A stretch of DNA of 64,000 nt. It comes from an uncultured Gilliamella sp. (GTDB lineage Bacteria; Pseudomonadota; Gammaproteobacteria; Enterobacterales; Orbaceae). Positions 42,951 to 63,712 of the stretch are shown here, piece after piece (the stretch's first letter is position 1; every line of letters begins with the position of its first letter). The notes beneath the pieces were generated by a model. That model searched no databases. It had not been told where the DNA came from and saw only the letters and a list, made by a program, of their open reading frames with translations. Made by a program: the position numbers and the translations under genes. Location of the stretch: assembly GCA_946482005.1 (NCBI GenBank), contig CAMLPV010000001.1, positions 186,001 through 250,000 of the forward strand, read 5' to 3'.

Positions 42951-43052
42951 GTGCCTAAAATTTAGCAAATTTAACTTCAATCGGTGCGAAAACGCACTGC
43001 AACCAATTCTACAATCACAATACCAATCTCACGGCAGATATTAAAGGAAATT

Positions 43053-43415
43053 TTACTGAATCAGTTTAATAAGAACGTATAAATATGCATCTTCTTCTGG
43101 ATTAGGGAAATCTATTAAATCGTATAACTTTCCCACAATTGAAACACTCTTAAGAAAGTTAATCCATTTAATAATATCATTAATCTCAAGATTAAGTCTT
43201 GAATTAAATGTAGCAAATATTACTAAAGGTCCCACAATTACAACTATCACATCTCTTTTGGGGTAAGTAAATATTTTAAACAGATCAGAACTTGAGATGC
43301 TCTTACCTTTCTGTAGAAGGTTCATAATATCCTGAGTATTAAACAAAAAACGATTTGCAAACATCTGTCTAAGTGAAGTTTTACCATTACTGGTTTCAAG
43401 GATACCGAAATACAA
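43053..43415 (-). CDS. Hypothetical protein, possibly 5'-truncated
   Basis: A frame of about 120 residues (TTG at 43415) reads LYFGILETSNGKTSLRQMFA through SDLFKIFTYPKRDVIVVIVG to DAYLYVLIKLIQ. The same frame is open about 20 codons further upstream (to a stop near 43473) without a good start, so the true start is unclear or lost. I recognise no family. It is the only minus-strand gene among the tail fibre genes and lies between fibre remnants, so it looks like inserted cargo. Confidence 0.4.
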   Translation of the reverse strand: MYFGILETSNGKTSLRQMFANRFLFNTQDIMNLLQKGKSISSSDLFKIFTYPKRDVIVVIVGPLVIFATFNSRLNLEINDIIKWINFLKSVSIVGKLYDLIDFPNPEEDAYLYVLIKLIQ

Positions 43416-43555
43416 GCAAGTTTTTTCAGAGGAGCTAATATTTTTAAGTAGAATTGAACGCCACTCATCTTACGACAGGTTCGGCAGACTACAGAGAACG
43501 ATACATAAAATGTAACGTGACTTTGATAATAAATTTTATATCATTTAATTATATA

Positions 43556-43783
43556 GCAATGATAATTCGTGGTATCGTATTTATTCTGACGGATTTATAG
43601 AGCAATCTGATGTCCAATTTATAGAGACACCAATTAAAAACACGGTTTATACAACATTTATTAACTTGCTAAAACCAATGAAATTATGTAGATATGGGAA
43701 AAGTATTGATAAAGTAGACAATGGTTGATGGGCTCAAACTGAATTTGCATATACTAATCTCGAACTTCACGAATTTTGAATAA
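43556..43783 (+). pseudogene. Tail fibre C-terminal relic
   Basis: One frame reads WYRIYSDGFIEQSDVQFIET, the WYRxYSDGxIEQ ending common to many prophage tail fibres. A few degraded codons surround it. It directly precedes a tail fibre assembly gene, the usual order, so the fibre gene it belonged to has been deleted. Confidence 0.55.
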
Positions 43784-43846
43784 TATCATTTACACCCAGC
43801 TTTCCGGATAGAATTTTAGCTCGTTGGACAATACGAGGATATTAAT

Positions 43847-44184
43847 ATGATAATTACAAATCAAGAATATGCTGAAATGGCTATCAAAGCTAATAAAAAG
43901 GGGAAAGAGTTAAAATGTGAAAATGGTAAATTAGTTCTTGTTAATCCTGAAACAATGGGGTTTACGGACGAGCAAATAATTTTCAAAATCAGCAAATTAA
44001 AGAATCGTTATTGAATGAAGCTAACAACGAAATAGATATATTCATCGATAAAATAGAGTTCGACCAGACGACTGATAAAGATGTAACAATGTTAAAAAAA
44101 TGGAAACTATATCGAATTAGTCTAAAAAAATTAGACGCATTGGATATCAATGTTATTTTTCCAACAAAACCAGAATTGAGTTAA
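43847..44184 (+). pseudogene. Tail fibre assembly protein, one frameshift as read
   Basis: The frame from ATG 43847 (MIITNQEYAEMAIKANKKGK) runs to about 43980. Adding one A at the AAATAATTTT run lets it continue NFQNQQIKESLLNEANNEID and FDQTTDKDVTMLKKWKLYRI to the stop at 44184, about 112 residues. The LKKWKLYRISLKKLD segment matches the caudoviral tail fibre assembly family (TfaE type), chaperones for fibre trimerisation. The upstream fibre is a relic, so this may be a leftover or may serve another fibre. Confidence 0.7.
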
Positions 44185-44498
44185 CAATCATCGCAACGAA
44201 CTTCAATCTTCAATCTTCAATACTCAACAACATAAGACAACATCACAAAATCGGCGATATCAAACATGTCATCATCATTTTGATAGAAAACGTAGTTATG
44301 ATCGTCGTGACTGTTAATTATGTAGCTTATCGCCTGCTAATTCTAAATCGTAATCGTCGGGCATTATTCTAATATAAAAAGATTGAGAAACAGATCGAAT
44401 AAATTCAAAAAATTTTACGGTATTTAATTTGTTCTTTATCTTTATTTTTCAAATAATTAATAAATTAAGTACTATAATAAAATCCTAACGAGGTAAAA

Positions 44499-46289
44499 AT
44501 GTCAGAGTTTAACACACCACTTGGAATCGACAACAAAGGTAAACTAAATTATTGGATTGCTCAGATGGCTGCGGGTCAAACAGTAAAAATCGCATGTTAT
44601 GGTGATTCAACAACAGATGGGCATGCGACTACTGGATGGACGCGAAATAAATTTGGTACAAATCACAGCGATAATGCCCCAAATTCTTGGCCTGTGATAT
44701 TACAAGCGATATTACGGACAATGTACAATAATGACAATATCCATGTTTATAACGCGGGGTATTCAGGTAAACGACTGGATGACGGTTGGGCAGTGCAAAA
44801 TTTTGAAAATGCGATAACTAATAATCCTCATTATGGCAAAGTCGATATTGTAATGTTTGGATTTGGCATTAACGATGCTGGTCATAACAAAGGAGACTTA
44901 TTGGCGGATACATTACAGCAAACAAATTTATTAATTGATAAAATAGAAAAGATTGGCGCCTTACCTATTATATTGACGTGCAACGTTGTCCGTTTAAAAT
45001 CAACGGGGGATATGGATAGCAAACCCTTTAAGATCGAACGCATAAATAGTATGAAAAGGTACATTGCGTGTACTCGAAATATTCCCTTGTTAGACCTAGA
45101 CGCCGAGATGAAAAAGTGGATGTCAAATACAAATGAGTATAACTACGCAGATCTCCAACCAGATAATACACACTGGTTGGATTTGGGACATTCGTTTCAG
45201 GCATGCTGGATTGCCAATCTATTTTATAATCGCATTGTTAAAATTAACGACAGCAACACGTATGAAAGCGTACACTTTTTAGATGATAGGGGGAATTCAC
45301 CTATAGGTGTTAATACTTCATCTACGACAACAAGTTGTAAATATGGTGTTAATCCTTATGTTAATCCCCAAAAATTTGATTGCAAAAACAAAGTACTGCT
45401 CGATATTTGGGTTTGGTGTGAACATTCTAACGCTTCCATTGTTTACCGCCGGATGTTGGGGGATGCCAGAACATCGAGCATTAAAGTAACGGATGTGCTA
45501 ACGGGTAATAGTGAATCAAAAATCGTAGGTTCGATGTTGTGGTATGGTGAGTACTCGGCGGTGGATACCCCAGAATACATTAAAGATCTGAAATATGGGT
45601 TAAATAGAATTCAATTAATAGGAGATATGAGCCTGACAAATAGTGTGTTCTTTGGCCATTTCGATTTTATTGTGAACTATCAAGCTAAACTTACAACTAA
45701 AGATTTGCTAAAAAATTATAGAACGTTTAGGGATCAGCAAGACCTAGTTGCACCGGCTGATGAACCATTTATAGAAACTAGTTTTTGCCGCACATCAGAT
45801 ATTTACGATAGATACGGAGAGAACGTTGTACAACTGTTCACTCGAGATAAAAATACTCATATTATACTAGAAGGGCTTTTCGATGACGGTTCGGGTGTGT
45901 TCTTATGTCAAGCACCTGGTAGATATAAGAACACCATTAACGGCATTATGTTGTATTTTTTCTCTGGATACATATCAATATATATACATACATTTGATAC
46001 TTTAAATAATGTTAATCGCTATGAAAAAGTGGGCTACCTAAATATTAAAAAATCGGACTCGCGGTATAGTGTAAGTTTAACGTCATTCATTGACAATCGA
46101 GGTTACGCGAATATACAAATAGAAAGCGAAGGTGCAATCGCAACAATGTCATTTGAGAGAGTTTTACCTAACGTAGAGCCCGTTACCTCAGGTGTTGCGG
46201 GCAATGTTTACCGAAGAATCGATAAAGGTGAGGCTAAAACGATGCGCGTTGAAATTACTCGATTTGAATGTTGGTATACCAATAAATAA
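44499..46289 (+). CDS. SGNH/GDSL hydrolase, probable tail-associated esterase
   Basis: This 596-residue protein has an SGNH hydrolase domain in residues 25-245: block I CYGDSTTDG (Ser37), block III GFGINDAG (Asn125) and block V PDNTHW (Asp222, His225), a complete catalytic set. The remaining 350 residues are strand-rich and probably form a binding or trimerisation region. Such domains on phage tails remove acetyl groups from capsules or LPS. No signal peptide is present, fitting a virion protein. It stands alone with AACGAGG upstream. Confidence 0.75.
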   Translation: MSEFNTPLGIDNKGKLNYWIAQMAAGQTVKIACYGDSTTDGHATTGWTRNKFGTNHSDNAPNSWPVILQAILRTMYNNDNIHVYNAGYSGKRLDDGWAVQNFENAITNNPHYGKVDIVMFGFGINDAGHNKGDLLADTLQQTNLLIDKIEKIGALPIILTCNVVRLKSTGDMDSKPFKIERINSMKRYIACTRNIPLLDLDAEMKKWMSNTNEYNYADLQPDNTHWLDLGHSFQACWIANLFYNRIVKINDSNTYESVHFLDDRGNSPIGVNTSSTTTSCKYGVNPYVNPQKFDCKNKVLLDIWVWCEHSNASIVYRRMLGDARTSSIKVTDVLTGNSESKIVGSMLWYGEYSAVDTPEYIKDLKYGLNRIQLIGDMSLTNSVFFGHFDFIVNYQAKLTTKDLLKNYRTFRDQQDLVAPADEPFIETSFCRTSDIYDRYGENVVQLFTRDKNTHIILEGLFDDGSGVFLCQAPGRYKNTINGIMLYFFSGYISIYIHTFDTLNNVNRYEKVGYLNIKKSDSRYSVSLTSFIDNRGYANIQIESEGAIATMSFERVLPNVEPVTSGVAGNVYRRIDKGEAKTMRVEITRFECWYTNK

Positions 46290-49269: not shown

Positions 49270-49578
49270 ATGCCAATAAAAGACCCAGACAACGTCAACT
49301 GGACGGTTGTTGTATACCTATTTATTATTACTTCGCTCGGTTCATTAGCAAGCTATTCTTATCATGTTATAAATGGTGGTAAATTCAGAGTTGGTACGTT
49401 GATAGGTCAGATATGTGTATCAACTTTTGCTGGTTCTCTTGTGGTTCTTGCTGCTAGTTATTTTAACTGGGATTTTGAACTAGCAGGCGGTATAGCTGGG
49501 TTAGCAGGTTGGTCGGGCGCAACACTAATTAAAGCGCTGGAAGAAAGACTGATTAAAAAAGCCAAAGGAGATAACTAA
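49270..49578 (+). CDS. Phage holin
   Basis: The 102-residue protein has three hydrophobic segments (about residues 12-30, 43-62 and 68-85) and a charged C-terminus (KALEERLIKKAKGDN), the class I holin layout. It begins MPIKDPDNVNWTVVVYLFI. Its stop overlaps the endolysin start by one base. Holins open the inner membrane to time lysis. Function is inferred from topology and position before the endolysin. Confidence 0.82.
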   Translation: MPIKDPDNVNWTVVVYLFIITSLGSLASYSYHVINGGKFRVGTLIGQICVSTFAGSLVVLAASYFNWDFELAGGIAGLAGWSGATLIKALEERLIKKAKGDN

Positions 49579-50018
49579 TGCAACTAACCGAACATTTTAC
49601 GCTTGAGGAATTTACCCGCTCAACCACAGGCGAGAGAGCCAAAATAAACAATTCTCTACCAGCTCAATTAATGCCCAATATCAAGCTAACTGCCAATAAA
49701 TTGGAGTGTGTAAGAAAAGTTTTAGGTTTCCCGATTATTATCACATCAGGCTATCGTTGTCCGGCTCTCAATACTCAAGTAGGCGGTTCACCAACTAGCG
49801 CGCACACCAAAGGGCTTGCCGTTGATTTTCATTGTGCATATGGGACGCCGAAAGCGATTTGCCAACGTTTAATTGATGCCGGTGTGCAGTTTGACAAATT
49901 AATTCAGGAGCACAACCAGTGGGTTCATATTGGATTTAGTCCGAGCAATAACCGCCAAATCGTGTTAACTGCGGTTAAACAGGGCGGTAAAACAGTTTAC
50001 GTCAATGGGTTAGTCTGA
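49578..50018 (+). CDS. Endolysin, M15-family L-alanyl-D-glutamate/D,D-peptidase
   Basis: The 146-residue protein is a single Peptidase_M15 domain, with zinc ligands in SAHTKGLAVDF (His76, Asp83) and WVHIGF (His117), and the TSGYRCPALN substrate stretch. It cuts peptide cross-links in peptidoglycan. It has no signal sequence, so it depends on the holin. It is chained to holin and Rz by one-base overlaps. Confidence 0.9.
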   Translation: MQLTEHFTLEEFTRSTTGERAKINNSLPAQLMPNIKLTANKLECVRKVLGFPIIITSGYRCPALNTQVGGSPTSAHTKGLAVDFHCAYGTPKAICQRLIDAGVQFDKLIQEHNQWVHIGFSPSNNRQIVLTAVKQGGKTVYVNGLV

Positions 50019-50386
50019 TGGATAAATTAAAACTACTTTATAAGCTGTCTCCGATAATATTATTAATTATTGTTATTTTTAGCATTTATTTTGCTTATCA
50101 ATGTTTTGAAGATGAACAAACAGCAAAACAGAAAATGACTGAATTATCTTCACAGATGCAACAATTACAGCAAACTATCGAGAGAAATAATCAGATTATT
50201 GCCGCTAACGAACAATCAAAACGTGAGCTAGAAAATCAATCTATTTCACGTCAGGAGCAGATCAATGAACAACTCAAAGATAATGATTGCGCTAATCAGT
50301 TCGTGCCTATGTCTATCTCTGGTAGCCTGTACAACCGAGCGAAAAGTTTACGTGAATCAGCCAATTCCAGCAAATCTGCTCAGTGA
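50018..50386 (+). CDS. Rz-like i-spanin
   Basis: The 122-residue protein has an N-terminal membrane anchor (LSPIILLIIVIFSIYFAYQC, about residues 10-29) followed by a long coiled coil (KQKMTELSSQMQQLQQTIER), as in inner-membrane spanins. With Rz1 it bridges both membranes and fuses the outer membrane at lysis. It starts in the overlap with the endolysin stop. A broken copy of its 3' part is at 37813. Confidence 0.85.
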   Translation: MDKLKLLYKLSPIILLIIVIFSIYFAYQCFEDEQTAKQKMTELSSQMQQLQQTIERNNQIIAANEQSKRELENQSISRQEQINEQLKDNDCANQFVPMSISGSLYNRAKSLRESANSSKSAQ

Positions 50387-50809: not shown

Positions 50810-51280
50810 ATGACTGAAGTACAAAAATCACAAAGCGAATATACCAAAACTAGAGATATCGGTGTATTTATTAGTAAAGATCCTTCAACAAAATTCATCA
50901 CTGATACCACCCCAAAATTAAGTTTAGAGTGTACGGTAACCGACTATTCCATGACATCACCAGAAGGTGAAGAGATTGATGTATCAACACTTTCCTCTCG
51001 TACCAAAGAAACCATTAGTGGATTGCCGGCTGAACCAACTGTATCAATGAACGTTAATTTTGTTATAGCAAATGATGGTCAAAAAGCTTTAAGAGAATCC
51101 TATGAGTCAGGTAATAATTACGCATTTAAAATCCAACATGAGGATGGTAGTTCTGTTGACTGGATTGCGCGCGTTACCAATTTTGAGTTTAAAGGTGAAA
51201 AGAATGGCATTTTAACTGGTTCATTCGCATTCAAAGTAAAAGGCTCATTTGTGTTTAATGAACCGACTCCAGCTAATTAA
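50810..51280 (+). CDS. Major tail tube protein (lambda V-like)
   Basis: The 156-residue strand-rich protein reads FITDTTPKLSLECTVTDYSM then ISGLPAEPTVSMNVNFVIAN and ends TGSFAFKVKGSFVF. Size, composition and position directly before a G/GT chaperone pair and tape measure identify it as the tube protein of a flexible siphophage-type tail. It is the first gene of the tail module, whereas lambda has Z and U before it. Confidence 0.8.
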   Translation: MTEVQKSQSEYTKTRDIGVFISKDPSTKFITDTTPKLSLECTVTDYSMTSPEGEEIDVSTLSSRTKETISGLPAEPTVSMNVNFVIANDGQKALRESYESGNNYAFKIQHEDGSSVDWIARVTNFEFKGEKNGILTGSFAFKVKGSFVFNEPTPAN

Positions 51281-51300
51281 TTTGTGGAGAAAACATCATA

Positions 51301-51684
51301 ATGAATTTAAAGAAAATTATCACTGCTAAAAATTCAGGCTTTCGCACTAAAGAGTTTCAGGTGGCAGAATGGAATACAACAATTTGTGTTCGAGAACCGT
51401 TACATATTGATTTTTATCGTTATGTAAAATCCATTGAAAAAACGTCAAAAGATGACTCATTAACTGAGCAAGAAAAAGACTTACTTAATATCAAAGCTGA
51501 AACTTTATTATTTGCTGCAACCGTAATTGATAAAAACGGTAATCTTATTTTCAATAGTAATGACAGTAAAGAAATGGAGGCGTTAGTAGAAAGTTATGGT
51601 CCTGTTCATACTCGAGTACTGAATAAAGCCCTCGAATTGATAGAGTTAAATAACGATCCTCTCAAAGAGGCTGAAAAAAAGTAG
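51301..51684 (+). CDS. Tail assembly chaperone G
   Basis: The 127-residue, mostly helical protein begins MNLKKIITAKNSGFRTKEFQ and lies between tube and tape measure, as gpG does in lambda. It ends GAA AAA AAG TAG, where a slippery site allows a -1 shift into the T extension. G keeps the tape measure soluble during tail assembly. Confidence 0.8.
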   Translation: MNLKKIITAKNSGFRTKEFQVAEWNTTICVREPLHIDFYRYVKSIEKTSKDDSLTEQEKDLLNIKAETLLFAATVIDKNGNLIFNSNDSKEMEALVESYGPVHTRVLNKALELIELNNDPLKEAEKK

Positions 51685-51977
51685 AAAATGAACCAGAGCT
51701 TTTCTTTAAATTAAAGCTAGCATTAAGGCTTGGTAAAACACTAGCTGAACTTGAGCAATCACTTTCAGCTAGTGAATTTTACTACTGGGTCGCATTTGAT
51801 AAATTAAATCCTATCAGTGACGAGCGAAATGACTGGCATGCAGCTCAAATTTCTTCATCTATATACCGCTCACAAGGTGGAAAAGTCTCTTTCGACGACT
51901 GTTTAATTAAATTTAGAGAAGAGAAAAAGCAACCAGTCACTTTATTCGACGCATTATCTAACTTAATTGGAAAATAA
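51301..51977 (+). CDS. Tail assembly chaperone GT fusion by -1 frameshift
   Basis: The heptamer A AAA AAG at 51675-51681 sits directly before the G stop and fits X XXY YYZ in the G frame. A -1 slip continues KVENEPELFFKLKLALRLGK and on to SNLIGK, adding about 98 codons up to TAA at 51975-51977, two bases from the tape measure start. The extension has the length and position of lambda T, which recruits tube protein to the tape measure. Expected output is mostly G with a small share of GT. Confidence 0.85.
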
Positions 51978-51978
51978 T

Positions 51979-54900
51979 ATGGCTATACCGCGAGAATTGG
52001 TGATACGACTCAGTGCAAATTCAGAATCGTATCAACGAGAAATTAAAAGAGCAACCCGTCTTGGTAATGATTATTACAAAACAATGGAGAAATATTCACG
52101 GCGTTTTGATCAACACATTGCCAACAATAAGAAATCAATTCAAGCAATCAATGCGCATTTAAGTAAGTTAAAAATTTCAGCCTCCGGGATGCCCAAAACA
52201 CTTGGAGTTGATTTTTCAATTACTGGTATTTTGAAAATGGCCGATGACTATGGGCAAATGGCCAATCGCGTCAAAATGGCAATAGATTCAGTTGGCGGAT
52301 CTGCTGATGATTATCAATTAGTTCAAGACAGGTTACTTGCAATAAGCAACAGAAATGGTAAAGCGATTTCAGATTCCCAAAAGTTATATATTGCGACTGC
52401 TTCATCAATGTCTGATTTAGGTTACAGTACTAATGAAACGGTCGATTTTATCGAGGCGATGTCAAATAGTTATAAAATAAATGCGACATCAGCAACTGAC
52501 GTATCGACAAGTATAAAAGCAATCAATGAATCACTGCTTACGGGTAAAGTAAGCGGTGATGATTTTAAAAAAATATTGTCATCAACATCTAATGTTGCTA
52601 CTGCATTATCTGACTCCATGGGAGAATCTGAAGCTACCATTATCCAACTCGGTATGTCTGGTAAAATTTCAATGCGTCAACTTTCTGAAGCGATGATTAA
52701 CGCCAAAGATAAAACGGGTAAAATGGCAGATGCCATGGGTAATACTCTTCAAGGTGGCTTTAATGCATTATCTAATGATTTTGGACAATTAGTTAACGAA
52801 TTAAATAATAGTCTTGGATTAACTAATAATATATCGAAAGCTTTAAAAATTTTAGCTGATAATATTGGATTAGTTTCCGTTGCTGGAGCGGCAGTTGTAT
52901 CGGCCAAATTTAGCAATTATCTAAATGGTGCATATACATCATTAAAAAAAGTTTCAGCTGAAATAGTAGATCAAATTAATAAAACCAGAAATCTTGCACT
53001 AGCCCAAAAATATCTTGCTGAGTCTGAGCTGCAAAAAATAGCAGTTGAAAAACAATCTATTGCAAGCACCAAACAGGCGGCAATTGCTAGATTGCAAAAT
53101 ATTTCCGGTATTAGTTCTAGCATATATGTACGAAGAGCTGTCTTAGCACTTGAAGCTCAAGAAATTGCTCTAACTGAAAGGGAAACGCAGGCTAAAAATG
53201 GACTTAGGGCAGCAAATGAGAGGCTTAAGTTATCAAGTAGCGCAATGACTATTTTAACTCGTGCCGGTAGTACCTTGTTAGGAGTACTTGGTGGTCCATT
53301 AGGATTAGCGATGACAGCCATTGCTGTTGGGACGGCTTTTTTCTCAATGAGAGATGGCGCGAATAGTGCTAAAAAACCAATCGAAGATCTGCAATTACCT
53401 GTTGATCAATTGATAGCAAAATACAAGGAACTTGATAAAGCACGTCAAGCCGTGTATAAAGATGATACCAATTCAAAGGTTAAAGATAAAGAAAAAGAAG
53501 TTGATGAAAATATCTCTGTTCTTAAACAAGATATAACAAAAGCATTAACTATAATTAAGCCAACTGGACATGACTACCCTAAAGTTCAAAGTGTATTACC
53601 TTCTGGAAACGCAGCAGCGATTGATACATATATAGAAAAAATAATAACTTTGTATGACCAAGTTAAAAATGGAACATTGCTAGATTATGGTTTTGGTGAA
53701 GAGTTATATGAAGCTAACAATCAATTAAATGAAGCAACACTTAATAATGAACAGTTTGGATCATCATTAGTCCAAATGACTAGTAAATTACTAAACAATG
53801 TAAATGTATTAGCTCAGGAAAAAGAAAAGCTGGATGCCATGAATAAAGCATCTGAAGTTGCCCAAAATGGTCTTAAAAAGCTTGACGTAGCAGATTTTCC
53901 AAACCTCGGTTACCAACTTCGTATATTAAACCAAGATCTAGAAACAAACAGTCAAAAAACAGGATTATCCGCGGAACAGGTTTACATATTAGCCGGTTTA
54001 CAAAAAGCAGCGGGTAATGCAGCATTGGCACATTCAAAAGACCTTATTGCTTTAGTGACCAATCAGGAACTATCAGCAGAAATGTCAGATGAATTAGCTG
54101 AAAAATTGAAAGAGTACATTGAGAAGTTACGAAAGTCTTATCAAGAACAAGAGAAGCTAAAGCGTAGTAGTTTGGATAAAAATCCAACTAATCTTTATCA
54201 ATCCCAACTTGGAAAACTTAACGATCAAATTAATGCCTATAAAGATATCACTGAACTTCAAAAAATCAGACGTCAATTAGCAGAGGGTGAATTAAAAGTA
54301 TTATCTAGTGAGCAAAAAAAAGCTTTAGAAAATAAAGCCATTGAGATTGATCAACTTAATGCCCAAAAAGAATACAAATCTATTCTTGATTCAATGCGTA
54401 GTCCTACCGAACAACAATTTGATAGTTACAAACAAAATTTGTCAGTTCTTGAAAAAAGTAACGTTTCCTTGCAAGAACGTGAAGAGTTGCTTAAAAAAAT
54501 GAATCAAAAAATGATTCAATCAGCGCCTACGTTAAGTATTCAAAATTCTTATAATGGACCAGGTAGTGAGCTAATCAAAGTTGCTGAAGATGAAAAAAAC
54601 CTCAAAGATTGGCAGCAACAACAGTTAGCAATTCAAACTGATTTGCTAAATGCTAAGTTAATAAATCATCAAGAATATGCTGACGCAGTTTTGAGCATCG
54701 AGGAAACTATGCAGAATAAGCAACAAGAGTTGCAATCTGCATATACAATGGCGGCGTTAGGTACATTTTCAACACTAACTGGTTCAATTGCTGATATGTT
54801 CAAACAAACAGCTGGTGAATCATCAGCTGCATATAAAGTGATGTTTTTAGCTAGTAAGGCTTCTGCTATTGCTCAAGCTATTATTAGTACAGAAGTTGCA

Positions 54901-55290
54901 GCATCAAAAGCGCTTGAACTTGGCCCTATTTTTGGTATTTCCGCTGCAAGTTGGATCAGAGGATTAGGTTATGCTTCAGTCGGATTGATTGCAGCTCAAA
55001 CCATTTCAGGTATGGCGCATAGTGGTATCGATAGTATTCCTCGCGAAGGAACTTGGTTACTCGATAAAGGCGAGAGAGTTGTTGATGCGCGCACAAATGC
55101 TGATTTAAAAAATTTCCTTGATACATCTAAATCATCTGGCGGCAGTATTACTGTAAATGTACCAGTCAATGTTGGCGGAGGTGATATTAGCGAGGAAGAC
55201 GGCAAAGAAATCGGTATAATGATAAAACAATCAGTGTTATCAATACTAGACGAACAAATGCGACCTGGTGGTAAATTAAATCGTCGTTGA
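51979..55290 (+). CDS. Tail tape measure protein
   Basis: The 1103-residue protein starts MAIPRELVIRLSANSESYQR and is largely helical with long coiled coils (about residues 330-420, 490-560 and 690-870). It has a hydrophobic stretch near residues 430-455 (LTRAGSTLLGVLGGPLGLAM) and a second near 960-1015. It sets tail length, implying a tail roughly as long as those of mid-size siphophages. I start at ATG 51979, just after the GT stop; the in-frame TTG at 51967 is less likely. The gene is intact. Confidence 0.88.
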   Translation: MAIPRELVIRLSANSESYQREIKRATRLGNDYYKTMEKYSRRFDQHIANNKKSIQAINAHLSKLKISASGMPKTLGVDFSITGILKMADDYGQMANRVKMAIDSVGGSADDYQLVQDRLLAISNRNGKAISDSQKLYIATASSMSDLGYSTNETVDFIEAMSNSYKINATSATDVSTSIKAINESLLTGKVSGDDFKKILSSTSNVATALSDSMGESEATIIQLGMSGKISMRQLSEAMINAKDKTGKMADAMGNTLQGGFNALSNDFGQLVNELNNSLGLTNNISKALKILADNIGLVSVAGAAVVSAKFSNYLNGAYTSLKKVSAEIVDQINKTRNLALAQKYLAESELQKIAVEKQSIASTKQAAIARLQNISGISSSIYVRRAVLALEAQEIALTERETQAKNGLRAANERLKLSSSAMTILTRAGSTLLGVLGGPLGLAMTAIAVGTAFFSMRDGANSAKKPIEDLQLPVDQLIAKYKELDKARQAVYKDDTNSKVKDKEKEVDENISVLKQDITKALTIIKPTGHDYPKVQSVLPSGNAAAIDTYIEKIITLYDQVKNGTLLDYGFGEELYEANNQLNEATLNNEQFGSSLVQMTSKLLNNVNVLAQEKEKLDAMNKASEVAQNGLKKLDVADFPNLGYQLRILNQDLETNSQKTGLSAEQVYILAGLQKAAGNAALAHSKDLIALVTNQELSAEMSDELAEKLKEYIEKLRKSYQEQEKLKRSSLDKNPTNLYQSQLGKLNDQINAYKDITELQKIRRQLAEGELKVLSSEQKKALENKAIEIDQLNAQKEYKSILDSMRSPTEQQFDSYKQNLSVLEKSNVSLQEREELLKKMNQKMIQSAPTLSIQNSYNGPGSELIKVAEDEKNLKDWQQQQLAIQTDLLNAKLINHQEYADAVLSIEETMQNKQQELQSAYTMAALGTFSTLTGSIADMFKQTAGESSAAYKVMFLASKASAIAQAIISTEVAASKALELGPIFGISAASWIRGLGYASVGLIAAQTISGMAHSGIDSIPREGTWLLDKGERVVDARTNADLKNFLDTSKSSGGSITVNVPVNVGGGDISEEDGKEIGIMIKQSVLSILDEQMRPGGKLNRR

Positions 55291-55301: not shown

Positions 55302-55351
55302 AAATTTCATACCATTCATTATATATTAGTGACATAAGGATGAATGGAATG
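55302..55351 (+). promoter_or_regulatory. Shared 5' leader of cargo gene 1
   Basis: AAATTTCATACCATT, then about 20 variable bases, then ACATAAGGATGAATGGAATGAAA in part. The same arrangement occurs at 57418-57464 ahead of the second cargo gene (AAATTTCATACCATT ... ACATTAGGATGG). It probably holds a promoter and ribosome site. Confidence 0.55.
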
Positions 55352-55903
55352 AAATGGTTTATCATATCAATTTTGGTTGTAGGTACATTAGTATCAACAT
55401 TTTTAATATATGTACATGAAAGTGTTAGCTATGATGATGTTTTTTTATATGACTTGAAGCAAAGATGTTCCTTTGCAACTAAAGAACGTATGGTGGCGCC
55501 ATCGTCGTATAAAATTCTAGAATTATCCTTGACTAGTAAGAAAAACTGGAGCCAAGATAGAATTGATAATTACTTTTCAAGAAATCGAATATATTCATCA
55601 TTAAAAGAAAAGTATAATGATCCCAAAAATTTCTACAACACAACTGCTTTGGTTAAATTTTCATCCAAAAACCGAATGGGTGTTGATTTAGTCGGTTATT
55701 CTTCATGCGAATATTATATTGACAACACTCGTGAACCAAGAGTTGATGAAATTGGAGAAATAGATATTGATGGACATAATTACAAAAAAGATAGCTTGGA
55801 TTATATTTATGCTGAATTAACATTGAATAAACATGGGATAAAATATTCGTTAATAGACAAGATAAAAACCTTAATGAATATAGAGTTTGAGTATAAACGA
55901 TAA
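55349..55903 (+). CDS. Cargo protein 1 in tail module: membrane-anchored, unknown function
   Basis: The 184-residue protein has one N-terminal membrane segment (WFIISILVVGTLVSTFLIYV) and a periplasmic-side domain with cysteines in LKQRCSFATK and YSSCEYY, able to form a disulphide. The family is not known to me. ATG 55349 is at proper distance from AAGGA; the ATG at 55340 overlaps it. It lies between tape measure and the CRISPR array and shares its leader with the gene at 57462, so it appears to be an independently transcribed cargo gene rather than a virion protein. Confidence 0.6.
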   Translation: MKWFIISILVVGTLVSTFLIYVHESVSYDDVFLYDLKQRCSFATKERMVAPSSYKILELSLTSKKNWSQDRIDNYFSRNRIYSSLKEKYNDPKNFYNTTALVKFSSKNRMGVDLVGYSSCEYYIDNTREPRVDEIGEIDIDGHNYKKDSLDYIYAELTLNKHGIKYSLIDKIKTLMNIEFEYKR

Positions 55904-56085: not shown

Positions 56086-56114
56086 GTGTTGCCTGTATTC
56101 ACTGGGATTAATCA
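56086..56114 (+). repeat. Degenerate CRISPR repeat relic upstream of the array
   Basis: GTGTTGCCTGTATTCACTGG and the following GATTAATCA match the array repeat at 23 of 29 positions. It lies 385 bases before the first intact repeat, with a decayed 41-codon frame (56124-56249) between. It may mark an older array end or leader. Confidence 0.55.
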
Positions 56115-56470
56115 ATAATAGAGATGAATTTTGACCCTATTGAGTTACAGTTGTTTAGTATTTGTAAACAAACATTAGTCACTGCTATCAATCCGTTGAA
56201 TGATTTGCGAGAAAAAATAGAATCGTCAGCGTTAAAATGTCACCATTAAAGAATTACAGGGCGTGCAAATGTGGTTCGTCAAATCGCTTACTTGATCAGA
56301 TACCCGCTTATAGCCAAGTTACATAAGCAAATAACCTAAAAAATAGAGTCATTTTGCTAATAATAAATCACTAAAAACATCTCAATAAAATCATGCCAAA
56401 AAACAGTAAAAAAGTTGGTGGAAATTTATCGCTTAGTATTTTAACTAATAAACAATAAGTTATAATAAGA
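56115..56470 (+). promoter_or_regulatory. Presumed CRISPR leader region
   Basis: This AT-rich stretch ends ATAATAAGA directly at repeat 1 and is the side opposite the degenerate last repeat, so it should be the leader side from which the array is transcribed and extended. Its left half holds a short frame, MNFDPIELQLFSICKQTLVT, probably a leftover phage gene. Confidence 0.5.
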
Positions 56471-57354
56471 GTGTTCCCTGTATACACAGGGATAGACCGC
56501 TCTCTTTATGTTGACGTAACCATGTGCCCTGGTGTTCCCTGTATACACAGGGATAGACCGGAACATGTCAATAAATAAATGAGTGTTTTTGTGTGTTCCC
56601 TGTATACACAGGGATAGACCGCTGACAGTAGCCTCAAAAATAAAAAACGAAACGTGTTCCCTGTATACACAGGGATAGACCGTTTACAAAGATGGGAAAG
56701 ACTTCATCGGTATTGTGTTCCCTGTATACACAGGGATAGACCGGTTTGCCAATTGAGTTAGACTGGGCTATAGAGGTGTTCCCTGTATACACAGGGATAG
56801 ACCGGGCGCGTTTACAAATTCACTTAATCAATGGAAGTGTTCCCTGTATACACAGGGATAGACCGCACCGGCTCGACGTCAACAATTGAAGTTATAAGTG
56901 TTCCCTGTATACACAGGGATAGACCGTGATGGGGTAATTGATAAACTATATAAACGAGGTGTTCCCTGTATACACAGGGATAGACCGGGTTATTTAATGA
57001 AGTAAAAGCGTTTGGTGATGTGTTCCCTGTATACACAGGGATAGACCGCCGATCAAACCAATTTTTACTAATAATTTTTCGTGTTCCCTGTATACACAGG
57101 GATAGACCGTCTTTTTTTATCGAGCGCGATTAGTCGATAAAAGTGTTCCCTGTATACACAGGGATAGACCGTGAAATTTTACGGAAAAATCATTGGTGAT
57201 GAAGTGTTCCCTGTATACACAGGGATAAACCGGACAATGGATTAAAGCTCGCCGACAAGAGCTAGTGTTCCCTGTATACACAGGGATAAACCGGTTTTTA
57301 TGAGGGAGCTAATCGGCGTTTATTAGTGTACCCTTTATGTACTGGGATAATAGG
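56471..57354 (+). CRISPR. Type I-E-like CRISPR array, 14 intact repeats and one degenerate
   Basis: 29-base repeats beginning GTGTTCCCTGTATACACAGG and ending GATAGACCG start at 56471 and recur every 61 bases (spacers 32, one of 33) up to 57265; a degraded 15th repeat lies at 57326-57354. The CCCTGT-ATAC-ACAGGG stem gives the crRNA hairpin. The repeat matches the class of E. coli type I-E (G-GTTCCCC...GGGGATAAACCG). Repeats 13 and 14 end GATAAACCG, the others GATAGACCG. There are 14 different spacers. No cas gene is in the window, so the array would rely on Cas proteins encoded elsewhere. It lies inside the tail module between tape measure and minor tail protein M. Confidence 0.97.
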
Positions 57355-57417: not shown

Positions 57418-57464
57418 AAATTTCATACCATTTAAAAAATGAACACATTAGGATGGATAGTATG
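57418..57464 (+). promoter_or_regulatory. Shared 5' leader of cargo gene 2
   Basis: Repeats the AAATTTCATACCATT and AGGATG-AT--ATGAAA elements seen at 55302-55351, ahead of an unrelated coding sequence. Confidence 0.55.
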
Positions 57465-57959
57465 AAAAGGATTTTGTTTTGTTTATTGTTTTTCCCTTTT
57501 CTAGTTAGCGCAAATTCGAATTTAACCGAAAATGATATATCTACATATTTAGCTGACATATGCAAGTCAACTCCTTATTATTTCACACAACAAATGAATG
57601 GATTAATCATAAAGGATAATAGCCAAAGTACTATCGGGAAAATTTCACGTGAAGATATAAACAAATACAAATTAATAGAAAAATATAAAAACCTTGGTGA
57701 TGATGCGTTCAAAAGTTATGCAACAATAATTGACATGACTGGTGAAATAAATATCAAGAATATTCACTCTGAAACCAGAATTGCGGGTGTGTGTTTAGTT
57801 TTAGTCGCTCAAGATGACATAATGAGTGTAACTGCTGACTATGTGATGGCGCATAGTGAGGGTATTTCAAAATTACCCATTGCAATCATGGAAACCCTAG
57901 TAAATAAAAACGTAAATGAACTTGAAACGTTGTTAGAGAAAATAAAAAAATTTAACTAG
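57462..57959 (+). CDS. Cargo protein 2 in tail module: secreted, unknown function
   Basis: The 165-residue protein has a signal peptide (MKRILFCLLFFPFLVSA, cut before NSN). The mature part is helical, with cysteines in LADICKST and RIAGVCLVLV and an ending ELETLLEKIKKFN. The family is not known to me. The ATG at 57462 is chosen for spacing to AGGATGG. It follows the CRISPR array and precedes a terminator and the M gene. Shared leader but no sequence similarity with the 55349 protein suggests interchangeable cargo. Confidence 0.6.
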   Translation: MKRILFCLLFFPFLVSANSNLTENDISTYLADICKSTPYYFTQQMNGLIIKDNSQSTIGKISREDINKYKLIEKYKNLGDDAFKSYATIIDMTGEINIKNIHSETRIAGVCLVLVAQDDIMSVTADYVMAHSEGISKLPIAIMETLVNKNVNELETLLEKIKKFN

Positions 57960-58079: not shown

Positions 58080-58100
58080 ACCGCCTGTTGGCGGTTTTTT
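58080..58100 (+). terminator. Rho-independent terminator before tail gene M
   Basis: ACCGCC, loop TGTT, GGCGGT followed by T6, ending 16 bases before the M start. It closes the cargo/CRISPR insertion. Confidence 0.85.
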
Positions 58101-58116
58101 ATTGTCTGGAGAAAAT

Positions 58117-58446
58117 ATGGAAACATTCAGTTGGGAGCTTGCTCCAGGTTTAACAGTTAAAGCTGAACCAAGGGTCAAACTTATCAAATTTGGTGATGGT
58201 TACGAACAACGCGTTAGAGATGGGATTAATAACGATCTACGTTTATATGACGTAAGTTTGAATGTTCCTAGAGATGATGCTGCTATGATTGATGACTTTC
58301 TAACACGGCATGGTGGTGTTCATGCCTTCAAATGGCGAGAGCCAAACACCAATCGATTAATCACAGTTAAATGTCCATCATGGTCAACAAATGTTAAACA
58401 TACAGTAATATCAATTACTGCAACATTTGAGGAGGTTGTAGTATGA
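58117..58446 (+). CDS. Minor tail protein M-like
   Basis: The 109-residue protein matches the phage minor tail family: TFSWELAPGLTVKAEPRVKL, KFGDGYEQRV, GGVHAFKWREPN and TFEEVVV. In lambda, M is part of the tail tip. Its stop overlaps the L start (ATGA). ATG 58117 follows CTGGAGAAA; the TTG upstream adds residues not seen in the family. Confidence 0.88.
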   Translation: METFSWELAPGLTVKAEPRVKLIKFGDGYEQRVRDGINNDLRLYDVSLNVPRDDAAMIDDFLTRHGGVHAFKWREPNTNRLITVKCPSWSTNVKHTVISITATFEEVVV

Positions 58447-59147
58447 TACCGCAAAAAATGCTACTCGATATAACTAAAATAGCACAAGATGCGATTGTTG
58501 ATTTGTATGAAGTTGATTTAACTAAAATTGTCGGCAACAAAACAATATTTCGATTTCACAATGGATTAAATGAGCTGAGACGACCGATAACGTGGCAATG
58601 TAATATCTATGAACCTTATCCCATAAAAGTTGAAGGTTTTGAAAAGAATGGACAGGGTGTGAGTAACCGTCCAACAATGAGTGTTAGTAATGCGATGGGC
58701 TTTATCAATGGTCTAATTGCTGATTTTGACGGTTTACTTGGTGCAATTGTCACCCGTCATGAAGTGCCTGTCAAATATCTAGATGCGGTGAATTTTGAGA
58801 ACGGTAATCAATATGCCGATCCGTTTTGCGAAATTATCTCAAATTATGTGATTGAGCAGGTAAAACAACAAAATTCAATGGTTGTTACATTTGAATTAGC
58901 ATTGCCATGTGAGTCCGACGGTGCATTAATTCCGGCTCGTGTCATTGTTGCTAACACTTGCAATTGGATATATCGCTCGTCGGAATGTGGTTATACAGGC
59001 GGTGCAGTAGCGGATGAATTCGACAAACCAACAAACGACATCACTAAAGATAAATGTAGCCGATGTTTAACTGGTTGTAAACTTCGTCATGGCCAATATG
59101 GTATTCTACCATTTGGTGGTTTTCCTACTGCTGCAAAATTATCCTAG
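58443..59147 (+). CDS. Minor tail protein L-like (Fe-S type)
   Basis: The 234-residue protein has the four conserved cysteines of gpL near its C-terminus, in ANTCNWIYRSSECGYTG and DKCSRCLTGCKLRHG, which bind an iron-sulphur cluster in lambda. It ends in the RHGQYGILPFGGFP motif. It is part of the tail tip, linking M and the hub, and overlaps M by four bases. Confidence 0.92.
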   Translation: MIPQKMLLDITKIAQDAIVDLYEVDLTKIVGNKTIFRFHNGLNELRRPITWQCNIYEPYPIKVEGFEKNGQGVSNRPTMSVSNAMGFINGLIADFDGLLGAIVTRHEVPVKYLDAVNFENGNQYADPFCEIISNYVIEQVKQQNSMVVTFELALPCESDGALIPARVIVANTCNWIYRSSECGYTGGAVADEFDKPTNDITKDKCSRCLTGCKLRHGQYGILPFGGFPTAAKLS

Positions 59148-59209
59148 TTAAAACTCAACGATTAAAAACCTATTTCCCCCTCAAATATACCTAAAAATCA
59201 GGTTAAATA

Positions 59210-59929
59210 ATGAAAAAAGAGATACTCAATCATGCTAAACAATGCGGTGAGGCTGAATGCTGCGGTTTTGTTATTGATAATAAAATCTATATGCCATGCA
59301 ACAATATATCAGCAACACCGACAAAAACATTTGAAATATCCCCCGATGATTGGATAAAAGCTGAAGAGAAGGGTGAGATTACAGCAGTTGTACATTCTCA
59401 TCCTGACGGTGAGCCAATTCTTAGTGAGGCTGATCAAATTTATCAACAGTTTACAGGTTTAGATTGGTGGCTGCTATGTGATAACCAAATTCATAAATTT
59501 AGATATATAAAACCATTATTAGGTCGAGAGTTTCAACACGGAAAAATCGATTGCCTAACAATAGTACGTGACGCCTATATGCTTGCTGGTATTGAACTAC
59601 CTGACTATGAACGTCAGGACGATTGGTGGCACAACGGTCAAAACCTCTATCTAGATTTACTGCCCCAAAACGGGTTTGTGCAAGTTGATGCGCAAGAACT
59701 GCAAGAAGGCGATATCATCATCATTTGTCTTGGCTCATCAACACCTAACCATGCAGCCATCTACATTGGCAACCAACAAATCTTACATCACTGTCCAAAT
59801 CGTCTATCTAAACGAGATATGTATGGCGGTTTTTGGATGGACTATACGCATTCAATATGGAGACATAAAAAATGGCAAAAATTCGGCTTTATGGCGATCT
59901 TAAACAATATGGCGATAAGTTCAATATGA
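59210..59929 (+). CDS. Tail tip protein K-like (JAB/MPN and NlpC/P60 domains)
   Basis: This 239-residue protein has two enzyme domains. The N-terminal JAMM metalloprotease fold has HSH-x7-S-x2-D (His62, His64, Asp75) and Glu16. The C-terminal NlpC/P60 peptidase has Cys115 in GKIDCLTIVRDAY and His181 in PNHAAIYIG. Lambda K has the same order and is needed for tail-tip assembly; the NlpC domain may cut peptidoglycan. It overlaps the I gene by 58 bases. Confidence 0.92.
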   Translation: MKKEILNHAKQCGEAECCGFVIDNKIYMPCNNISATPTKTFEISPDDWIKAEEKGEITAVVHSHPDGEPILSEADQIYQQFTGLDWWLLCDNQIHKFRYIKPLLGREFQHGKIDCLTIVRDAYMLAGIELPDYERQDDWWHNGQNLYLDLLPQNGFVQVDAQELQEGDIIIICLGSSTPNHAAIYIGNQQILHHCPNRLSKRDMYGGFWMDYTHSIWRHKKWQKFGFMAILNNMAISSI

Positions 59930-60429
59930 ACGTTGAAACAGCAGCAGAAGCATTAAATGGTTTGTATTGTCAGATAAAAGGCTTAAAAAAGCAAATTATG
60001 GACGGTTTTTTTCGCGTACGAATTAATGGTGTAGATATGAATGAGGGCAATTTACAGTTTGGGTTGCATAGCCGAATTCCTCAAAATGCCGTGATTCATA
60101 TTGTACCCAAAACAGAAGGTGCAAAAGGTGGGGCATTCAGCTTTATCGCAGGTGCTGTAATGTTTGTTGTTGGGGCTATTTTTTACTGGACGCCAATGGG
60201 TTATCCATTGATGGCAACAGGTGTGGGCTTAATGATCGGTGGTGTAGCCATGATGCTAACCAAGCTACCCAAAACCGAGAAATTAGCCGATGGAGGTACT
60301 AATAAAAACACCTCTTTTTCTAATCTGGACAACACGATAGCACAGGGTGCACCAGTACCACTTTGCTACGGATTAACAAAAATAGGCTCTAAAGTTTTAT
60401 CACAGGGGTTGGAAACAATAGATGGGTAA
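59872..60429 (+). CDS. Tail assembly protein I-like
   Basis: The 185-residue protein begins MAKIRLYGDLKQYGDKFNMN (ubiquitin-like strand) and has a central hydrophobic region (FSFIAGAVMFVVGAIFYWTP and GVGLMIGGVAMML). It ends with NTIAQGAPVPLCYG, the gpI family signature. It is required for tail-tip assembly in lambda and is not in the finished virion. It overlaps K upstream and J by eight bases. Confidence 0.9.
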   Translation: MAKIRLYGDLKQYGDKFNMNVETAAEALNGLYCQIKGLKKQIMDGFFRVRINGVDMNEGNLQFGLHSRIPQNAVIHIVPKTEGAKGGAFSFIAGAVMFVVGAIFYWTPMGYPLMATGVGLMIGGVAMMLTKLPKTEKLADGGTNKNTSFSNLDNTIAQGAPVPLCYGLTKIGSKVLSQGLETIDG

Positions 60430-63400
60430 AGGTAAAAAAAAGGCTAAAACGCCCACAGAGGCGCAAGATAACTTAAAATCAAATCAGCAACTGAGTATTA
60501 TTGATTTGTTGTGTGAAGGACAGATAGAAGGACCAGTGAATGGCCTACAAAGCGTTTTTTTAAACGATACGCCAATTCAAGCACCAAACGGTTCATACAA
60601 CTTCAAGGGAGTTGAAGTCGAATGGACGGCTGGCGTTCAGTCACAAGCACCGCTTGAGAGTTTTCTAGCAACGGAAAACGAAGTGCCTGTTAATCTTGAG
60701 GTAAAGGCATCAACCCCGATTGTACGAACCATTACCGACCCCAATATTGACAGAGTTCGGGTTACAGTTGGTGTACAGTCATTAAGCTCAACGGACAAAA
60801 AAGGCAACATTAACCGAACATCGGTGTCAATGGCAATTCAAATCGGTACGGGCCACATGTGGGAAACGGTAAAAACTGTTGATTTAATCGATAAAAAAAC
60901 CCGCTCACAGTATTTAACATCGGTTATTTTAGATGATTTACCTCCGAAACCGTTTAACATTCGAGTAGTGCGCAGAACGCAAGATAGCACGTCATCATTA
61001 TTAGCTAATAATACGCTGTGGAGTTCGTACACAGAAATTTATGATACCAAATTTTCATATCCAAATACTGCGGTAGTTGGACTAAAATTCGATTCATCGC
61101 AATTTAGTGGTGTACCTCGCCGAAACTATTTAATCAAAGGTATGATAGTTAAAGTGCCTGACAATTACGACCCTGAGACGAGAGAATATAAAGGTTTTTG
61201 GTCAGGAAATTTCAAGCTTGCTTGGGCAAATAACCCAGCTTGGATATTTTACGATATTTTGACTAACACACGTTACGGTATGGGGAATCGCATCAGTCAA
61301 TTCGGTGTTGATAAATTTGCGTTATATACCATTTCTCAATATTGTGATCAGTTAGTCGATGACGGTTTCGGTGGCAAAGAGCCAAGATTTACCTGTAATT
61401 GCTATATTACCGAGCAACGACAGGCGTATGAGGTTATTCATGATTTATGCTCGATATTTCGGGGGATGCCGATTTGGGACGGTACACAATATACAGCCGT
61501 TATGGATAGACCAAGTGACCCTGTGGCGATTTATTCAAATGCGAACGTTGTCGATGGTCAATTCAACTACACGTCAGCCGCGCAAAAATCACGGCATACA
61601 GCTGTGCACGTACGTTATATTGACCCCAATAATAACTGGGAGACCACAACCGAATACGTTGCTGATGATGAGTTAATTAAACGATTCGGGTTGAATGTTG
61701 CTCAAGTCGATGCATTTGGCTGTACATCGAGAGGGCAGGCACATAGAGTTGGGAAATGGCTAATTCAAACCGAAAAATTAGAGACACAAACCGTTACATT
61801 CAATGTAGGACGTGAAGGTATTAGACATTTGCCTGGGGATATTATTGGTATTACTGATAATGATTTTGCAGGTACGACTATCGGTGGACGAATTTTAGAG
61901 GCAAATGGTAGTACTATTAAGTTAGACCGTGATATTGACATTAAAAATATGAAAAATGCGTATTTAAGTGTAACTGATACCAATATGCAACTACATAAAA
62001 TTAAAATTCAAGCACAAGTCAAACCCAATCAGCTTGTTTTGGTAAATAGTGTTAGTGTTGATGATTATTCTGTTTGGGGACTATATGACAATAAAATCAA
62101 GCCACGATTATTCAAAGCTCTTTCCATTACAGAAAACAGTGATGGCACTTACTCTATCACTGCGCTAGAACATGAAACTAGGAAAGAGGAAATTGTTGAT
62201 AACGGCGCTAAATTTGAAGAGGAAAGCGGTTCTATTTTTAGTTGGTTAATTCCGCCTGTAGAGCAGCTGCAGACTGAAATTATCCCTGAATCTGATCTCT
62301 ATCAAGCACGATTATCATGGTCTACACCTCGCACGATTCAAAACTTGAGATTCGAAGTAAAAATCTATCGTGATGATAAACTAATTAGTCGTGAAACTGT
62401 TAATAATACTGAATATTACCTATCAGACTTGCAACAAGGTAAATTCAATGCAACAGTCAGAGGAGTGGCAGAAGATGGGCGATTGGGTGATGAAAGAACT
62501 ATCGCATTTTCAATATTACCACCAGCAAAACCTTCAGGATTAGTATTAACGCCAAGTGCATTTAATATTGCAGTTCGCCCCGTTATGACAGCAACATCTA
62601 GCTTAGGTACTCAGTTCGAGTTTTATAAAGGCACCACCAAAGCAGAGGTCGAGGCACAGACCAACTACTTGGGTCGCGCGATGTCATTAACAGATGTTGA
62701 CTGCACTCCAGATACCGAATATTGGTATGGTGTAAATGCGGTTAATGTTGTTGGGCGTTCAGATATGTATATCGCTAACACTCGAACATTAGTTGCAGAA
62801 AATGGCGCCGGTGGTCTATTTAGAATTCAAACAGATGATGGCAAATTTCCTGATAATGATACAGCAACACAAATGTTTTATCGTGAATTCGGCTTTTATC
62901 CCGCTCGTGATACAACATTAATCATTTACTCACTAGCTGCTGACGGTAAAGTTTCTCACTCGGAAGCTAGGCTATACAACGGTGCACAGTGGATAGAGCC
63001 GAAAATGTTCATTGACGGTGATTTAATTGCAACAGGAACAATGCGTGGTGATAGGTTAATTGCTGGTACTGAAATCAAAGCGCCGTTAATAACCGGCGGG
63101 CAAATGATTGCCGGTAGTGTAATAAGTGCAGGGACACCACCAGCATTTGAGTTACTGCCAGACGGTACTGTACATGCTCGTAAAGCCGTTATATCAGGTG
63201 ATATATATGCGAAATCAGGACAATTGAATAACGTTATTATCAATGAAAACTGTCAAATTAAAGGTACTTTAAATGTAAATCAAATAAAAGGAAATGTCCT
63301 TTCGGCAAGGATTTTTAATAAAAACATTCGTCTCAAAGGTAAGCATCCAAATGAGAAAATTCATGTGATGAGTGTTGAGGCATCAGGAGAATGGCAAACA

Positions 63401-63712
63401 CTTTGTTTTACCGAGACAATAGGTGTCCACGGTGGAAGGAACATAATAGGTTTGCCAAGAGAGGATGAGAAAATATACGGAAGGATGTGTTTTTTATTCA
63501 ATGATCAATACGCCTACGAAGTTAATCAATTTCACATAGTAGGTATAGGATTTCGTAATTTAATTTTGCCTATTCCACCATTCTCTAATGGTGAACGAGT
63601 GGAAATATCAGTAACGATTAATAATCCCATGTCTGAGACTTGTATTTATAATTTGTCTTTTAACTCCCTAGTTTTTCTAATGAAAAACTCAAACGGTTTT
63701 CTACCTGACTAA
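60422..63712 (+). CDS. Tip attachment protein J-like (central tail hub/fibre)
   Basis: The 1096-residue protein begins KKKAKTPTEAQDNLKSNQQL, continues SIIDLLCEGQIEGP and FLNDTPIQAPNG, contains GVQSLSSTDKKGNI and WANNPAWIFYDILTNTRYG, and has fibronectin-like repeats from about residue 620. A variable C-terminus follows from about 850. J contacts the host receptor in lambda. The gene is intact and complete in the window. Confidence 0.93.
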   Translation: MGKGKKKAKTPTEAQDNLKSNQQLSIIDLLCEGQIEGPVNGLQSVFLNDTPIQAPNGSYNFKGVEVEWTAGVQSQAPLESFLATENEVPVNLEVKASTPIVRTITDPNIDRVRVTVGVQSLSSTDKKGNINRTSVSMAIQIGTGHMWETVKTVDLIDKKTRSQYLTSVILDDLPPKPFNIRVVRRTQDSTSSLLANNTLWSSYTEIYDTKFSYPNTAVVGLKFDSSQFSGVPRRNYLIKGMIVKVPDNYDPETREYKGFWSGNFKLAWANNPAWIFYDILTNTRYGMGNRISQFGVDKFALYTISQYCDQLVDDGFGGKEPRFTCNCYITEQRQAYEVIHDLCSIFRGMPIWDGTQYTAVMDRPSDPVAIYSNANVVDGQFNYTSAAQKSRHTAVHVRYIDPNNNWETTTEYVADDELIKRFGLNVAQVDAFGCTSRGQAHRVGKWLIQTEKLETQTVTFNVGREGIRHLPGDIIGITDNDFAGTTIGGRILEANGSTIKLDRDIDIKNMKNAYLSVTDTNMQLHKIKIQAQVKPNQLVLVNSVSVDDYSVWGLYDNKIKPRLFKALSITENSDGTYSITALEHETRKEEIVDNGAKFEEESGSIFSWLIPPVEQLQTEIIPESDLYQARLSWSTPRTIQNLRFEVKIYRDDKLISRETVNNTEYYLSDLQQGKFNATVRGVAEDGRLGDERTIAFSILPPAKPSGLVLTPSAFNIAVRPVMTATSSLGTQFEFYKGTTKAEVEAQTNYLGRAMSLTDVDCTPDTEYWYGVNAVNVVGRSDMYIANTRTLVAENGAGGLFRIQTDDGKFPDNDTATQMFYREFGFYPARDTTLIIYSLAADGKVSHSEARLYNGAQWIEPKMFIDGDLIATGTMRGDRLIAGTEIKAPLITGGQMIAGSVISAGTPPAFELLPDGTVHARKAVISGDIYAKSGQLNNVIINENCQIKGTLNVNQIKGNVLSARIFNKNIRLKGKHPNEKIHVMSVEASGEWQTLCFTETIGVHGGRNIIGLPREDEKIYGRMCFLFNDQYAYEVNQFHIVGIGFRNLILPIPPFSNGERVEISVTINNPMSETCIYNLSFNSLVFLMKNSNGFLPD

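Follow-up and report, generated by a model that had tools for sequence, protein, structure and literature searches.

CRISPR arrays carried by prophages of Clostridioides difficile belong to type I-B. In the part of the C. difficile report that deals with these arrays, their spacers match other phages, the cas genes lie elsewhere in the genome, and the arrays were reported to be expressed and processed (PMC4524475). Viral CRISPR mini-arrays, as described in the relevant sections of a second article, contain one or two spacers between repeats identical to those of the host, are directed against related viruses and are linked to inter-virus competition, and the same sections present the RNA anti-CRISPR as a solitary repeat unit carried by a virus (PMC11656645). 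F-type tailocins, or lambdoid tail-like bacteriocins, combine a repressor, an antiterminator, lysis genes and a complete tail without a head (a definition drawn in part from PMC10870725).

The locus analyzed here lies in a window of 64,000 nucleotides (the whole stretch of DNA under analysis) from an uncultured Gilliamella sp. The best explanation, with a probability of roughly 0.74, is that a leader-bearing and recently growing type I-E array without cas genes of its own is served by the host and occupies the cargo slot of a head-less, tailocin-like lambdoid cluster. The surrounding element was annotated by PHROG scans of the window ORFs, which gave the gene order CI, O, DnaB, Q, spikes and fibre, holin-endolysin-Rz, V, G, H, then orf187, the array and orf168, and finally M, L, K, I and J. 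The features are as follows.

26852..26928, + strand: tRNA-Arg(TCT), chromosomal; phage-derived clusters adjoin it in several congeners
32815..33459, - strand: CI-like repressor (phrog_4)
33998..36177, + strand: replication genes, O-like initiator and DnaB-like helicase
36579..37196, + strand: Q-like antiterminator (phrog_79)
38222..46289, + strand: two tail-spike-like genes (38222-40252, 40723-42927) and a tail-fibre-like gene (44499-46289)
49270..50386, + strand: lysis cassette of holin, endolysin and Rz spanin, with tail genes directly after it
50810..51684, + strand: major tail protein V (50810-51280) and tail assembly chaperone G (51301-51684)
51967..55290, + strand: tail tape measure protein H, 1107 aa (phrog_339, E 3.9e-146)
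55340..55903, + strand: orf187, cargo gene 3' of the tape measure gene (PHROG 20018)
56086..56114, + strand: degenerate repeat-like relic upstream of the leader (at most 6 mismatches to the repeat)
56386..56470, + strand: leader of the dispersed-array class, AAAAAAGTTGGT...AAACAATAAGTTATAATAAGA (leader scan of 26 loci, a few lines of which are not leaders)
56471..57354, + strand: type I-E-like CRISPR array of 14 intact 29-nt repeats, 14 spacers and a degenerate end repeat
57453..57959, + strand: orf168, cargo gene 3' of the array, with an N-terminus that looks signal-peptide-like by eye
58080..58095, + strand: terminator-like hairpin before M (2 in the region vs 1.8 expected)
58102..63712, + strand: minor tail proteins M, L, K and I and central fiber J, frames open

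The lysis genes of this element lead directly to V. A tblastn search with 18 head-side queries gave no match in the window or in the downstream stretches L034 and L151, and two tail-control queries did match the window. Thirteen of the queries represented terminase, portal, protease or capsid of three prophage modules together with three large putative ORFs, and five more were taken from the prophage of G016. Tail and lysis genes without head or packaging genes are a mark of F-type tailocins, and the element, described earlier as prophage-derived, shows this combination as far as these queries reach and looks like a tailocin-like, head-less lambdoid cluster. As a prophage of G034 (L145) pairs the same tail type (60-81% identity) with a head module, the window element appears to derive from such a phage by loss of the head. 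No integrase was found among the larger window ORFs, those scanned with PHROGs, and a second copy of the tRNA end that might mark the element boundary was not found. The tRNA-Arg(TCT) site is common to clusters in G003, G004 and G035. The same gene order was observed in G039, where most tail and lysis proteins are 97-100% identical, H is 90% and J 94% identical. Downstream of the window element, the same genome contains a contractile-tail element (L151, L153) with sheath, tape measure and baseplate wedge genes, which is possibly a Mu-like prophage by its gene sizes.

Comparison with L067, a fragment that ends inside the array and covers its right side, gave dN/dS values of 0.06-0.12 for M, L, K, I and J, those of M, L, I and J being rough because dS (1.5-3.0) is near saturation. 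K showed a dS of 0.19, and orf168 a dS of 0.06 with a dN/dS of 0.71. Since dS differs so sharply between K and orf168 on one side and M, L, I and J on the other, divergence is mosaic along the tail genes, which would fit recombination around the array. The slot between tape measure and M was also seen to hold varying cargo in related loci (L145, L146, L147, L148, L149 and L150), including Fic, Bro-N, KilA-N and anti-repressor domains or uncharacterised genes, and is likely a moron site.

The array itself consists of 14 perfect 29-nt repeats at 56471-57293 with a period of 61 nt, located between the tape measure gene and M just as the preliminary description had placed them; it is flanked by H and orf187 on one side and by orf168 and M (58102-58446) on the other. 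Spacers are 32 nt long in 13 of 14 cases, and spacer 11 has 33 nt. Twelve repeats read GTGTTCCCTGTATACACAGGGATAGACCG and the two at the far end ...GATAAACCG; the last intact repeat is followed by spacer 14 and a degenerate terminal repeat (57326-57354). As RNA, the first repeat forms a hairpin of -10.9 kcal/mol (z -2.9), and the terminal repeat folded no better than shuffled sequences. A partly palindromic 29-nt repeat with 32-nt spacers is the type I-E format, and the repeat resembles that of E. coli type I-E. A conserved leader, also typical of type I-E, lies at the growing end, the polarity being taken from the repeat variants. A leader of about 80 nt is common to many dispersed arrays (L073, L075, L128, L137, L140, L141, L142, L143). 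The relic at 56086-56114 ends in ATTAATCA, like a terminal repeat in L036; it lies 385 nt upstream of the array and is perhaps the end of an older one. Neither orf187 nor orf168 had a family match in Pfam or PADLOC. A search of the genome contig collection found no relatives of orf168, and a 73% relative was met later in G026 (L169:2119-2616), near the tRNA-Arg flank gene and without recognised tail genes. At three or fewer mismatches, the repeat pattern occurs at 33 sites of the window's own genome (reversed control 0), on contigs C1 (the window array), C4, C5 and C20, and all 19 stretches of the genome collection with the exact repeat are titled Gilliamella.

The host genome encodes a type I-E cas set on contig C4, with cse1, cse2, cas7, cas5, cas6 (cas6e), cas1 and cas2 in this order; cas3 lies on the opposite strand, roughly 9 kb upstream of them. 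The cas genes are free of stops; cas3 encodes 904-910 aa with GAGKT and DEVH motifs, and its score of 447 bits is below the NCBIfam cut-off of 569. A short array adjoins cas2; its repeat is the same as in the two oldest copies of the window array and one base off the other 12. The type I-E-like assignment and the expectation of a cas operon with the same repeat (0-1 base differences) were thus both borne out, and the view of the array as an orphan inside a tail module stands, the searches of the own genome with cse1 and cas3 matching contig C4 only.

Growth of the array in place is suggested by a sister cluster, L070 (also L091), which is accompanied in IMG/VR by a record of equal length (L071; 72,158 bases) that may be the same isolate deposited twice. 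DNA identity between sister and window is about 95-97% over the whole cluster, and the flanks of the array agree at 1124 of 1129 positions upstream and at 1154 of 1157 downstream; nevertheless, every spacer but the oldest, spacer 14, differs between the two arrays. The leader and terminal repeat are homologous in L070, L071 and L067, and the last spacer is found in L070 and L071 but not in L067. Within the window array, ATAGACCG is the handle of the 12 repeats on the leader side, and ATAAACCG that of the two oldest; the substitution shared by the 12 falls in the predicted 5' handle of the crRNA (AUAGACCG, comparison handle AUAAACCG), whose position we take from E. coli. Of 664 repeats scanned, 12 have the variant; these all belong to the window array, and no other scanned array of the genus has it. 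In type I-E systems new repeats copy the first repeat. If this applies here, at least 11 spacers were added after the handle change because 12 leader-side repeats share it, and these were probably acquired in place.

The native window array was searched against 35 genomes of the genus, and, among the matches listed, nucleotide-level protospacers in prophages of congeners were found for at least two of the 14 spacers (6 and 11). Spacer 6 matched a head maturation protease gene in G021 with 2 mismatches and AAG, a kind of gene not found in the window element, and a relative of this target in G034 showed 5 mismatches and AAA. Spacer 11 matched J genes, with 3 mismatches and AAG in G016 and with 4 mismatches and AAA in G011. 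In a codon-degenerate IMG/VR scan of four of the 14 spacers (4, 5, 8 and 9), spacer 4 had a codon-level match, with 7 mismatches and AGG, in a tail-tube gene, whereas spacers 5, 8 and 9, tentatively proposed earlier as coding targets from their open peptides, had no codon-level match. Collections of phage and plasmid records contained no convincing protospacer for the window spacers. Four Vibrio phage rows for spacer 10 reached only E 0.3 and were rejected as protospacers, and two rows from the record collections resemble other arrays and were set aside. Concerning self-targeting, seven of eight matches in the own genome, those listed, all fell in the genome's own arrays, and no match at five or fewer mismatches was detected in the own-genome stretches examined.

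A broader spacer survey covered 98 loci (1.64 Mb) at five or fewer mismatches, leaving out repeated and short pattern loci, and identified a protospacer for 79 of 585 spacers, compared with 0 of 585 reversed controls. AAG precedes 42 of the 79 best hits, the type of motif expected beside type I-E protospacers. When L081-L083, which had been fetched as targets of the window array, were left out, 75 spacers had a protospacer and AAG preceded 39 of them (background 1.7%, p 1.5e-48), and 68 of the 75 best hits were located in loci hand-listed as phage regions (591 of 1589 kb). The proposal that competing phages are targeted via host Cas, together with the checks of protospacers and adjacent motif suggested for it, thus gained support, with the AAG protospacers in congeneric prophages pointing to such targeting. 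Eight of the nine arrays on phage-derived elements had at least one match at five or fewer mismatches, and the ninth (L084) had one at six. In the sister array, spacer 5 has a perfect match with AAG in L153, the contractile-tail element of the window's own genome, and spacer 2 matches the G014 prophage beside the same tRNA-Arg (3 mismatches, AAG). Two spacers of the array in the G016 prophage match that prophage's own tape-measure gene, with 4 and 5 mismatches, and these self-matches sit awkwardly with simple rival targeting. Spacers of element-borne and other arrays with phage protospacers amounted to 11 of 51 and 64 of 534, respectively (without L081-L083); because p was 0.075, a phage preference of element-borne spacers is not claimed.

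Among 64 surveyed arrays with at least three good repeats, nine were placed on phage elements, 10 beside cas genes and 45 elsewhere, the surroundings of the last group having been compared with labelled proteins only; five of the nine came from IMG/VR, where they were fetched for holding the repeat. The exact repeat was present in seven IMG/VR contigs, one of which (L068) is too short for placement. Within the 35 genomes, phage elements bearing arrays were found in G000, G003 (of the G038 type), G014 and G016, and head genes are present in the prophages of the last two. No head genes were detected in the contractile clusters of G038 and G041, and G035 has a cluster with a different siphovirus-type tail; in all three, the array directly follows Q. 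A contractile head-less cluster at tRNA-Arg(TCT) in G004 has no array, and in the other 10 genomes with a relative of M, no array was found within 1.5 kb of that gene (11 loci, one incomplete). The window-type leader accompanies most dispersed surveyed arrays, and the cas-adjacent arrays have a slightly different one; from the sequences, leader and repeat look as though they spread from place to place in genomes as one unit. In L036:7668-13354, L073, L075, L076 and L128, arrays were also seen flanked by small ORFs in the neighbourhood of PAAR-DUF4225 or DUF7079 genes (called with Pfam in L036 and L076 and by similarity or ORF size in the others), which are possibly effector and immunity loci, often with several arrays each.

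Under the preferred reading of a host-served array, Cas1-Cas2 encoded on contig C4 would add spacers to the window array in trans, Cas6 would process its transcript to crRNAs, and Cascade-Cas3 would use these against temperate phages of the same genus. Array growth alone does not prove interference. The position of the array would most likely reflect hitchhiking by one of many dispersed arrays, and therefore immunity would travel and recombine with the tail cluster. The earlier idea that immunity spreads with the element is compatible with the same-spot arrays in related clusters and with the mosaic divergence, both of which fit exchange, but transfer as such is not proven by them.

The location may be incidental, as arrays are widely dispersed in the genus, or it may be functional, the Q-antiterminated late operon reading the array so that crRNA rises upon cluster induction, when rival prophages wake. 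All nine phage-element arrays are indeed read in the late-gene direction, at four kinds of position (after Q, between H and M, before the tape measure gene and after it), and the perfect AAG match of the sister array L091 lies in the contractile-tail element of the window's own genome. Probably about four independent insertions underlie this co-orientation, however, which makes it weak evidence; the leader may hold a promoter of its own, a terminator-like hairpin precedes M (itself weak, because two were found against 1.8 expected), and for 55 of the 64 surveyed arrays no placement on a phage element was made, 10 of them adjoining cas and 45 lying elsewhere. A functional location is thus considered unlikely, and the fuller scenario, in which the late operon of Gilliamella tail clusters drives the array, crRNAs silence rival prophages woken by the same stress and strain exchange moves weapon and memory together, is likewise unlikely. 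Another possibility is that the array does not function, the handle substitution making its crRNAs useless or turning them into competing decoys for Cascade. The substitution could weaken Cascade loading, no other scanned array has the ATAGACCG handle and few window spacers match known phages. Yet the leader is kept and the repeats are otherwise perfect, where drift would be expected after decay, and the change was probably followed by at least 11 acquisitions, so that loss of function is improbable.

The element might also be a decaying prophage rather than a tailocin, with head genes lost and tail genes on the way out. O and DnaB persist in it, the tailocin reading is drawn from gene content, and a prophage with a head module and a homologous tail does exist (L145). 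Decay rather than domestication would also be compatible with a broken small-terminase relic in the sister cluster (L092:3312-3849; 62-79% identity in three pieces), located between spike and fibre genes. A 64-aa head-morphogenesis relic with 69% identity was found in the G035 cluster (L088:15031-15219), where it separates Rz from the first of the tail genes, and one of the three large putative head-query ORFs weakly matched 64 aa of L088. These relics add some weight to the decay reading and slightly lower the confidence in the preferred one. On the other hand, every annotated tail and lysis frame is open, with the low dN/dS noted above (0.06-0.12), which could be inherited from phage ancestors; the same order recurs in G039, and head-less clusters with other tail types occur (G003/G038/G041, G004 and G035). 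Ongoing decay therefore appears rather unlikely. Misassembly joining a chromosomal array to a prophage, named in the preliminary description as grounds for doubt, would be conceivable in a draft of 34 contigs, but the left and right junctions both recur in L070 and L071, which may be a single isolate, and L067, from another data set, has the right one as well; this leaves an artefact with a negligible chance. The other ground for doubt named there, a lack of compatible cas genes, is contradicted by the set on C4.

The host-served reading of the array implies that phage-derived tail clusters may be a place where adaptive immunity is kept and updated, some of the stored spacers matching genes of phages from the same genus; the sister pair, with flanks more than 99% identical and every spacer but the oldest different, illustrates such updating. 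This compact natural system raises three questions: whether elements themselves profit from the CRISPR memory that they carry, whether crRNA production is driven by late transcription, and whether memory is passed from strain to strain along with a weapon locus. It also adds phage-host links for bee-gut communities. In literature on tailocins, Gilliamella and CRISPR outside subscription journals, no title or abstract opening among those listed named an array in a tailocin cluster, and no paper combining Gilliamella and tailocins was found. Prophage-borne arrays are already known, and an array in a tailocin-like cluster looks new.

Like the prophage arrays of C. difficile, the window array is borne on a phage element, has spacers matching phages and depends on cas genes located elsewhere; unlike those expressed arrays in prophages, it is of type I-E, lies in a head-less tail cluster and is known from sequence alone. 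It differs from viral mini-arrays, which have one or two spacers in the sections consulted here, in having 14 that seemingly accumulated in place, and its 14 tandem repeats likewise set it apart from the solitary repeat unit given there for RNA anti-CRISPRs. The element shares a repressor, an antiterminator, a lysis cassette and a full tail with F-type tailocins, with no head found, but, known here by its genes, it additionally carries a CRISPR array and replication genes. Finally, the array agrees with orphan chromosomal type I-E arrays with remote cas genes, many of which occur in Gilliamella, in repeat, leader, PAM and host cas genes, and it is distinguished from them by its position inside a phage-derived late gene cluster.
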